Source of the DNA: an uncultured Pirellulaceae bacterium
GTDB lineage: Bacteria; Planctomycetota; Planctomycetia; Pirellulales; Pirellulaceae
DNA: 64,000 nt
Direction of reading: 5' to 3'
Assembly: GCA_937929805.1 (NCBI GenBank)
Contig: CALFUT010000023.1
Span: 1-64,000, forward strand
In this document: piece after piece, positions 1-41,089 of the stretch
Layout of the letters: every line of letters begins with the position of its first letter
Numbering within the stretch: the first letter of the stretch is position 1
Translations under genes and position numbers: made by a program
Notes under the pieces: model-generated
What the model was told of the DNA's origin: nothing
Seen by the model: the letters and a program-made list of their open reading frames with translations, nothing else
Database searches by the model: none

Positions 1-255
<255 letters not shown>

Positions 256-37394: not shown

Positions 37395-40256
37395 TTAAGT
37401 GACAGGATCGACGCTGTCTCCCGTTGCCGAGGCCAGCAGTTCCGCATGTTCCAGTTTGTGCGAATTCTTGGAACCGGTTGATGGACTCGCCGATTCAGGT
37501 CGAGTGATCCCGTTCAATGGCCACCGGTCACCCAAACCAAGCTCGTCCCACTTGATTTTCATGAAGTACCACGCACCCATATTTCGTGGTTCTTCTTGGA
37601 CCCAAAACACGGGCGTGTTTTCCGGATAAGACTCCAACGCCGCGCGAATTTCATCAATCGGCAAAGGATAAATTTGCTCAACCCGAACGATCGCAAAGTC
37701 TTTCCGATCGGTGTCTTGACGATGCTTCATCAAGTCGACACCGATTTTTCCGGTCGTGAGCAAAATCCGTTTTGGCGAGTCGCTACCGGTGACCGTTGTG
37801 TCAGGCAACAGACGTCGAAAAGTACCTGACTCAAAATCTGCTAACGGCGACATCACCATCGGCTCACGCAACAGGCTCTTCGGAGTGAAAACGATTAGCG
37901 GCTTACGCCATTTGCGTTTGACTTGCCGCCGCAACAAGTGGAAATACTGAGCCGTCGACGTTGGATACGTCACCTGCATATTGTGTTCGGCCGCTGAATT
38001 CAAAAAGCGTTCGATACGAGCACTACTATGCTCGGGGCCGGCTCCCTCAAAACCGTGCGGCAACAGCATCGTCAAACCACTCAGACGTCGCCACTTGTCT
38101 TCGGCACTACTGATGAACTGATCAACAATCACCTGAGCCGCGTTAAAGAAGTCGCCAAACTGGGCCTCCCAAACGGTCAGGCCCTCCGGCATGTCCAAGC
38201 TGTAACCGTAGTCAAAACCAAGAACCCCCGCCTCACTGAGCGGACTGTTGATGATGTCGACCGCCGCCTGACCATCCGCCAAATGTGCGATTGGACACCA
38301 CGGCTTCCCATTCGATTCGTCCATCACGACCGCATGCCGCTGACTGAACGTTCCTCGCCCGCAATCCTGCCCTGAGAACCGAATCGGATGCCCTTCAAGC
38401 GCCAGCGTTCCCAACGCAGCCAGTTCGCCCGTCGCCCAATCGACCGGACGCTCACCTTGAGCAGCATCAACTCGGTTGGCATAAACTCGCTGGAGCTTCC
38501 GACTAAGTTTGAAATCGTCCGGCACTTCTGTCGCGCCGCGAATTACTTTTGACAACTGCTCAAGAGGAACCCCCGTATCCACATCGTGGTCAAGGTTTTC
38601 AAGCCCGCCCGTGTAGTCGTTCCAGATGCCCGCCAACGTTTGCGTGTCTGCAACAAAGTCTTCTTTCTTCGCGGCGTCGAACTCAAACTGAAGCTTTTCG
38701 CCTCGGACAAACGCCAACCGATTGGCTTCTTTCTCAGTAACGCCCCCCATCTTCAACAACCGCTTCATGTAGCTGTCACGGATGGTCGGCAGGCTATCGA
38801 TCGTTTTGTACATCAACGGCTGAGTAAACCGGGGCTCGTCACTTTCGTTGTGCCCCAACCGGCGATAACAGTACATGTCGATGACCACGTCCCGCTGAAA
38901 CTCGCGCCGGAACTCCATGGCCAAGTTCACCACCTGAGCAACCGCTTCCGGATCCTCACCATTGACGTGAAAGATTGGAATTTGCAGCATTTTCGCGACG
39001 TCGCTGGCATAGGTCGAAGACCGACTGTGCTGCGGGTTGGTCGTAAAACCAATCTGGTTGTTAACAATGACGTGCAGCGTGCCGCCGGTTTTGTAACCAT
39101 CCAACTGGCTTAGGTTAAGCGTTTCCTGCACCACACCTTCACCCGCGAAAGCTGCGTCGCCGTGGATCAGGACTGCCATAAAGCCGTCATCTTCACCAGA
39201 TCGATCCTTTTTGGCTCGACAGCGCCCCAAGGCAACAGGGTTCACGAATTCCAAATGGCTGGGGTTAAAGCAAAGCGAGATATGAACCTTCTTGCCTTTA
39301 CTTGTCACCCAATCGTTGCTGTAGCCCAAATGATAGAGCACGTCACCGGCACCACGATTTTCATCGGGCTTCGGGTCGTTAAAGCCCCAAAAAATGTTCT
39401 GTGCCCGCTTACCCATGATGTTGGCCAGCACATTCAGACGTCCACGATGAGCCATCCCAATCACGACATCCTTAACGCCATGGTCGCCCGCTTTCTCTAG
39501 GGCTAGGTCCAATAGAGGGATGAGCGTTTCGGCTCCCTCCAACGAGAACGTCTTGGCACCGATAAACTTCTTCCGCATGAACTCTTCGAAGATGACCGCA
39601 TCAGTCAATCGAGTCAAAATTCGCAGCTGTGTGTTCCGGTGCAGCTTCATGCGATTCATGGATGACTCCATCCGCCGCACCAGCCAATCGCGAACGTGGC
39701 GATCGTCAATGTGCATAAACTGCGCACCAATCGACCGGCAGTAAGTTTCTCGCAACAAGTTCAGGATGTCGTTAAGCGAACGAACATTGCGCCCTTCGAC
39801 CGTCCAAGAGGAAAATTGGCGTTCCAAATCCGTTGGCTTGAGGCCGTAAGACTCGAGGCTGAGTTCTGAATTCTGTTCTCGAGGCCGACCGAGCGGATCG
39901 ATGCGCGCCTCAAGGTGCCCGCGTACTCGAAAGCCGCGAATCAACTGATCGACTCGATCCTGCAACTGAGCGCCGGCAACATTGTCCTCAGGGCTACTAC
40001 CAGCCAAACCATTGGCCGCCGCGTGAGTACCATTGCGTGGCAGGTCGGCAAACCCAGCCGAGTTCGAAACACCTGCGTTTTCACCCGAGCCGCGAGACGC
40101 AAGGCCAGGCACCGCTGGAACCCGCGTCGCATCAACTGCCGGAACGGTCGGATCGAACGTTTCAAAGAACGTTTGCCACTCCGTTGGCAGAGAAGCTGGA
40201 TCTTGTTGGAAATCACGGTAGAGACTATCGATGTAGTCCCGACTGAATACGTTCAT
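37395..40256 (-). CDS. sucA: 2-oxoglutarate dehydrogenase E1
   Basis: Thiamin-diphosphate enzyme of about 953 residues that decarboxylates 2-oxoglutarate and succinylates E2. The N-terminal E1 segment (Y-I-D-S-L-Y-R-D-F near residue 7) is present. So are the catalytic H-R-G-R-L-N-V-L-A (about 270), the ThDP/Mg region G-D-A-A-F-A-G-E-G-V-V-Q-E-T-L-N (about 365) with I-V-N-N-Q-I-G-F-T-T, and the transketolase-like C-terminal half with S-Q-R-H-A-V and H-G-F-E-G-A-G-P-E-H-S-S-A-R. I take ATG 40256; ATG 40265, three codons up, is equally possible. First gene of the complex operon. Confidence 0.95.
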   Translation of the reverse strand: MNVFSRDYIDSLYRDFQQDPASLPTEWQTFFETFDPTVPAVDATRVPAVPGLASRGSGENAGVSNSAGFADLPRNGTHAAANGLAGSSPEDNVAGAQLQDRVDQLIRGFRVRGHLEARIDPLGRPREQNSELSLESYGLKPTDLERQFSSWTVEGRNVRSLNDILNLLRETYCRSIGAQFMHIDDRHVRDWLVRRMESSMNRMKLHRNTQLRILTRLTDAVIFEEFMRKKFIGAKTFSLEGAETLIPLLDLALEKAGDHGVKDVVIGMAHRGRLNVLANIMGKRAQNIFWGFNDPKPDENRGAGDVLYHLGYSNDWVTSKGKKVHISLCFNPSHLEFVNPVALGRCRAKKDRSGEDDGFMAVLIHGDAAFAGEGVVQETLNLSQLDGYKTGGTLHVIVNNQIGFTTNPQHSRSSTYASDVAKMLQIPIFHVNGEDPEAVAQVVNLAMEFRREFQRDVVIDMYCYRRLGHNESDEPRFTQPLMYKTIDSLPTIRDSYMKRLLKMGGVTEKEANRLAFVRGEKLQFEFDAAKKEDFVADTQTLAGIWNDYTGGLENLDHDVDTGVPLEQLSKVIRGATEVPDDFKLSRKLQRVYANRVDAAQGERPVDWATGELAALGTLALEGHPIRFSGQDCGRGTFSQRHAVVMDESNGKPWCPIAHLADGQAAVDIINSPLSEAGVLGFDYGYSLDMPEGLTVWEAQFGDFFNAAQVIVDQFISSAEDKWRRLSGLTMLLPHGFEGAGPEHSSARIERFLNSAAEHNMQVTYPTSTAQYFHLLRRQVKRKWRKPLIVFTPKSLLREPMVMSPLADFESGTFRRLLPDTTVTGSDSPKRILLTTGKIGVDLMKHRQDTDRKDFAIVRVEQIYPLPIDEIRAALESYPENTPVFWVQEEPRNMGAWYFMKIKWDELGLGDRWPLNGITRPESASPSTGSKNSHKLEHAELLASATGDSVDPVT

Positions 40257-40439
40257 TTCTATCATTGCCGATCAGCAAGTTCGAAGTCGCGGACTACTTC
40301 CTATGAACCCGCGAAATGGCTCCTCGTACTGTATCCAAATGCCCACCACGGGGCTATCGCCATGCAGACAAAAACCCCTAGATTTGCATTATTTTAAGTG
40401 GGCAACGAAAACGATTCGATTCCAAAACGAAGCAACGAT

Positions 40440-40784
40440 TCAGAAGATGGATTCGTACATTTCTTGGTTGAAGCCAACCACGATACGATTTTCAACCTTC
40501 AAAGTCGGAGCACGGAGATTTCCAGTCGGCCCGAGCACAAGCTTCAACAGCTCCTCCTCTGTCAAATCATTTTTCTTCATTTCAATTTGGACCACCTTTT
40601 TTCCTTTGGCGACACTCAGTGAGCAAGCATTTTTCAGCAACCCAATTGCCTCTTCGCGGCCCCATGTTTCTTTCTTCGCATTTGTTTCAGTTTTTGCTTC
40701 TAACCCAGCTTTCGCAAGAAACTCTTGCGTTTTAACACAGGTTTTTCAGCCCGGCCGGTGGTAGCTCCAGTCGATTTTTGCCAT
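40440..40784 (-). CDS. ArsC-like thioredoxin-fold selenoprotein with in-frame TGA
   Basis: Read from ATG 40784 with TGA (40748-40746) as selenocysteine, the frame gives a 114-residue protein. It starts M-A-K-I-D-W-S-Y-H-R-P-G-U-K-T-C-V-K-T-Q-E, so U13-x-x-C16 replaces the usual C-x-x-C of an ArsC/Spx-like thioredoxin fold. The fold's other marks are present: W-G-R-E-E-A helix, N-D-L-T-E-E-E-L-L, cis-proline in L-R-A-P-T-L, and V-V-G-F-N near the end. An AAGGA ribosome site lies 9 nt before the ATG. Standard callers would see only the 66 residues after a TTG. A SECIS-like hairpin lies 16 nt after the TGA. Family knowledge: ArsC-family (seleno)proteins exist in bacteria. Redox function is inferred. 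It lies upstream of sucA, same strand. Confidence 0.85.
40713..40729 (-). promoter_or_regulatory. Candidate bacterial SECIS element
   Basis: On the minus strand CGCAAG, loop AGTTT, CTTGCG forms a perfect 6-bp hairpin. It begins 16 nt after the in-frame TGA, so the apical loop starts 22 nt downstream. Bacterial SECIS elements need a short hairpin at roughly this distance with a G among the first two loop bases; here the second is G. This supports selenocysteine insertion. Confidence 0.7.
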
Positions 40785-41089
40785 CAAGATGGTTCCTTAA
40801 TTTAGGGGATAATGTTGATTTGAGCGTTTTGAACCAAGACACCATTTAGTTGGGCGGCAGAACTCTTTCCGCGACTCACCCCGCCAAAACCGACAGATCA
40901 TTCACTCCGACGTTGTTCCGACGCTCAATGAGTGCCTAAAATGGTCGGATCGTACTCTTCGTGCGGAGACGAAGCCGGGCAAGCCGTGTTCGCGGCCCTC
41001 GGCCCAAGCCGATTCGTTTTACAGGCTGAGCCTCAAACCGTAACGCTACCAGCTTCAAACCACTCATACTAAGATTAAACTTTTTCACC
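40785..41089. other. Divergent gap, selenoprotein gene and M48 peptidase gene
   Basis: Non-coding stretch of about 305 bp between divergent genes; it should hold both promoters. No repeat or clear promoter boxes are assigned. Confidence 0.4.

Follow-up and report, generated by a model that had tools for sequence, protein, structure and literature searches.

The analysed window is a 64,000-nucleotide stretch of contig CALFUT010000023.1 from an uncultured Pirellulaceae bacterium. On its minus strand, positions 40440..40784 hold an ArsC-like selenoprotein gene of 114 codons plus a TGA stop. The frame runs from an ATG at 40784 to the stop at 40442-40440, and its 114 residues are interrupted by a single internal TGA at codon 13 (40746..40748, minus strand), after which 101 more sense codons follow. 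The residues around this TGA read ...YHRPG-U-KTC..., where U is the predicted selenocysteine (Sec) of a UxxC motif and codon 16 (40737..40739, minus strand) supplies the putative resolving cysteine. A purine-rich AAGGAA lies upstream of the ATG, and a probable ribosome-binding stretch, TTAAGGAACC, was recognised from the sequence at 40791..40800 of the minus strand. The mechanical ORF list contains only two entries at this locus, a 66-residue tail starting from a TTG at 40640 and an opposite-strand ORF at 40303-40764. Both the frame broken solely by the TGA and the truncated product expected from gene callers had been described before this analysis, and both agree with the sequence. The likely gene call is thus corrected from a 66-residue tail to a 114-residue selenoprotein. 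When the window was scanned for frames that read through a single TGA, the others looked like chance extensions, for example one before a csrA-like gene, and further selenoproteins in the window were dropped as candidates. Across the whole window Rfam matched only a 16S rRNA gene, whose 3′ end lies at the window edge (1-246, plus strand).

With the TGA read as Sec, the protein scored 130.7 bits against the NCBIfam model NF041106 (ArsC_rel_Se_1, 'ArsC family (seleno)protein'), aligning to all 107 profile positions (1-107). The curated cut-off of this model is 85 bits, and the UxxC/CxxC site of the family corresponds to U13 and C16. We collected 91 homologous loci, including that of the window. 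Codon 13 was TGA in 80 of them, Cys (TGC or TGT) in 10 and Asp (GAC) in one, and Cys16 was present in all 91. Hence 90 of the 91 loci have Cys or Sec at residue 13, the comparison that the preliminary description had proposed, and the ten aligned cysteines together with the invariant Cys16 place the TGA at the first Cys of a C-x-x-C motif, as it had claimed. The nearest named relatives (49-75% identity) come from uncultured Pirellulaceae, Mariniblastus, Blastopirellula and Fuerstiella genomes, and two homologous loci carry titles from outside that planctomycete group (Bryobacter and Deltaproteobacteria). One genome has two copies, L070 (G045:C12) and L084 (G045:C5). The Sec position holds Sec in one copy and Asp (GAC) in the other, and both retain Cys16.

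An AlphaFold2 model with Sec13 modelled as Cys (pLDDT 87.9, pTM 0.76) showed a thioredoxin-type fold. Its best solved neighbours were Spx, YffB and ArsC-type proteins, with Z of about 8 and rmsd of 2.5-4.9 over 86-97 residues; this Z is modest and speaks to fold, not function. Pro93, the presumed cis-Pro, is invariant alongside Sec/Cys13 and Cys16, and these three positions would fit a UxxC oxidoreductase. Judged from the motif and the predicted fold, the protein is therefore likely to be a UxxC thiol-disulfide oxidoreductase. A selenoprotein that acts as an arsenate reductase proper, with Sec13 attacking arsenate and the adduct then resolved by Cys16 or a thioredoxin-type donor, seems unlikely. 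The fold is related, Pfam ArsC (PF03960) gave a weak match of 27.5 bits against a gathering threshold of 24, and the family has been named 'arsenate reductase-like' (PMC13188914). However, among NCBIfam matches with E up to 1 the arsenate reductase model TIGR00014 was absent, no ars gene lies immediately beside this gene in the window, and at least 90% of the relatives have Ala at residue 92, directly before Pro93. Classic ArsC has Arg at the residue just before that Pro. Of the earlier label 'ArsC-like', then, the placement in the ArsC/Spx superfamily stands, in its NF041106 branch, and nothing in these data makes the protein an arsenate reductase.

Spx proteins are the closest solved relatives by profile, and the protein matched the Spx/MgsR model TIGR01617 with 37.5 bits. 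A Sec-containing Spx-like redox regulator, which would bind RNA polymerase and sense oxidation through a UxxC switch, is nevertheless very improbable. The TIGR01617 score compares with a cut-off of 75.05 and that for NF009885 was 24.1 against 152, so the protein falls far below the Spx cut-offs. In the AlphaFold2 model a strand pair (55-60, 63-68) fills part of the region between the fold halves. The solved Spx/MgsR structures have CxxC at the position of UxxC, and the aligned solved Spx sequences carry Cys, not Sec. By profile, the protein belongs neither to the arsenate reductases nor to the true Spx proteins.

A hairpin, CGCAAG-AGUUU-CUUGCG (40713..40729, minus strand), starts 16 nt after the UGA. 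It has a G at loop position 2 and its apical loop lies 22-23 nt after the UGA; an alternative drawing has 7 bp and a GUU loop. Under the published rule for bacterial SECIS elements (PMC13188914), the first two loop positions include a G and 16-37 nt separate the UGA from the apical loop. The loop of the window gene, AGUUU or GUU at 22-23 nt, agrees with this rule. Rfam gave no SECIS family match over the whole window. Fewer than 1% of synonymous-codon resampling draws reached the observed hairpin (p = 0.007). The total folding energy of the segment was unremarkable (z = -1.2), and therefore the evidence lies in this particular hairpin and in how it covaries. Of the 80 Sec-form genes, 48, including that of the window, have a stem of 5 bp or more that carries an AGUU or GGUU loop 21-22 nt past the UGA. 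Among the 33 distinct hairpins of this set, the first six stem pairs were standard in 95% of cells, and 2000 shuffles of the 3′ arms gave 61% on average and 73% at most. Many compensatory changes were seen in the stem, and the RGUU loop was fixed. The amino acids encoded over the loop are Glu-Phe in most genes and Ser-Tyr in L096, L100, L104 and L106; a loop that stays constant while the encoded amino acids vary argues for selection on the RNA. Resampling for the canonical hairpin gave p <= 0.05 in 41 of the 80 Sec genes and in 0 of the 11 non-Sec genes. The 6-bp hairpin of the preliminary description is thus borne out, with a stem that covaries, and by resampling, the conserved TGA column and covariation the hairpin and the TGA together are more than chance. 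An ordinary Cys protein reduced to a pseudogene or a short tail gene, with the TGA as a nonsense mutation or a sequencing error, would account for the 66-residue mechanical call. Conservation of the TGA and covariation of the stem rule this out for practical purposes: 79 other loci from independent assemblies have the same TGA, mostly with a covarying hairpin after it. A read-level error, which had been raised as a concern, is likewise not the case, because independent genomes share the identical TGA.

The source genome was searched family by family for the selenocysteine machinery, and selA, selB, selC and selD, which had been suggested as a check, are all present. It contains a tRNA-Sec with anticodon TCA (tRNA-Sec(UCA)), a SelB of 645 residues with the third winged-helix domain SelB-wing_3, and a SelA of 466 residues (574 bits). 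SelD is part of a 735-residue fusion protein (L028:316-2523) that carries a pyridine-nucleotide oxidoreductase domain at its N-terminus and has no internal TGA; the fusion passed the SelD cut-off and scored below that of TIGR04369 'fusion_not_SelD' (422 against 700). The capacity of the lineage to make selenoproteins is thereby confirmed. In a sample of 392 genomes drawn from the phylum, a strong selA match was found in 68 of 72 genomes with the Sec form versus 2 of 10 with the Cys form (Fisher p = 5.7e-7, which is indicative because the genomes are related). Four Sec-form genomes had no selA match; three of them are 77-82% complete and one 91%. Two genomes have the Cys form despite selA (L050 in G135 and L109 in G268). 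Related genomes that carry the Cys or the Sec version offer a natural comparison.

Our data indicate that this is almost certainly a genuine NF041106-family selenoprotein gene of a planctomycete-like bacterium, in which UGA codon 13 is read by means of the downstream hairpin and the product is predicted to be a thioredoxin-fold Sec-x-x-Cys protein. From these lines of evidence we infer that Sec is actually inserted. SelB with Sec-tRNA(Sec) would bind the hairpin just downstream and decode the UGA, yielding a small protein of thioredoxin fold whose active site is Sec-x-x-Cys. Sec13 would attack the substrate and Cys16 would resolve the intermediate, so that the protein might work as a thiol-disulfide (selenenylsulfide) oxidoreductase.

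Proteins of this kind are known. A 2026 review lists NF041106, with UxxC, as the predicted selenoprotein family 'Arsenate reductase-like protein' (PMC13188914, Table 1). The window protein resembles this family in its full-length match, score, UxxC motif and Sec/Cys exchange, and is an ordinary member with no distinguishing feature. A 2008 ocean metagenome survey (GOS) described the selenoprotein 'Arsenate reductase 2' (cd03032, UxxC; PMC2398784), which shares the superfamily and the motif and, judging from the table in PMC13188914, is probably the same family. The Sargasso Sea arsenate reductase selenoprotein reported in 2005 also belongs to the ArsC superfamily but has UxxS (PMC1088965), with Ser instead of Cys as the second motif residue; the UxxS form is entered separately in PMC13188914, under TIGR00014. 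ArsC-like selenoproteins occur in Desulfotalea and Desulfuromonas (PMC1794560), and selenoproteins have been found in other planctomycetes (PMC4807772). The background given in the preliminary description, that ArsC-family selenoproteins are known, is thus confirmed (PMC13188914, PMC2398784, PMC1794560). A literature search combining Spx, selenocysteine and Planctomycetes found nothing. Since the family is already in databases and the literature, the finding is correct and ordinary: the window gene is a genuine further member of a catalogued selenoprotein family and not a surprising one.

Downstream, the adjacent gene is sucA (37395..40265, also minus strand), which encodes 2-oxoglutarate dehydrogenase E1. 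The sucA neighbourhood does not recur among relatives and no conserved link was seen. Other neighbours recur within single lineages only: one family shares rhomboid-like and BtuF-like genes and another an Rrf2-like regulator, all identified by eye. The neighbourhood was therefore dropped as a clue to the substrate, and no function is drawn from it.

In 31 Sec-form genes of the same phylum, the canonical hairpin is absent and a strong longer hairpin stands at the same place; this group is defined by the lack of the canonical loop, and a few of its 31 hairpins are weak. The mean folding z against synonymous resampling was -2.6 for this class, -1.5 for the canonical class and -1.2 for non-Sec genes. 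About a third of the 31 hairpins have a 5′ bulge of 1-2 nt, which resampling rarely reproduced. RNAalifold run jointly on all non-canonical hairpins gave no common structure because their registers differ. We tentatively suggest, at somewhat less than even probability, that within the NF041106 family two SECIS architectures serve the same codon in bacteria of a single phylum. One would be the canonical RGUU-loop hairpin, as in the window gene, and the other a longer, often bulged hairpin with a pyrimidine-rich loop, which would break the rule on G at the start of the loop and would presumably be read by a diverged SelB. This putative second shape is a more interesting by-product of the analysis than the window gene, and if true it bears on what SelB must recognise. 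Loci of this group include L077, L059, L084, L092 and L103, with hairpins within 60 nt after the TGA. The hairpin of L077, GUUCCG-AU-GCUUUU-AUU-AAAAGC-CGGAAC, breaks the usual bacterial SECIS loop rule.
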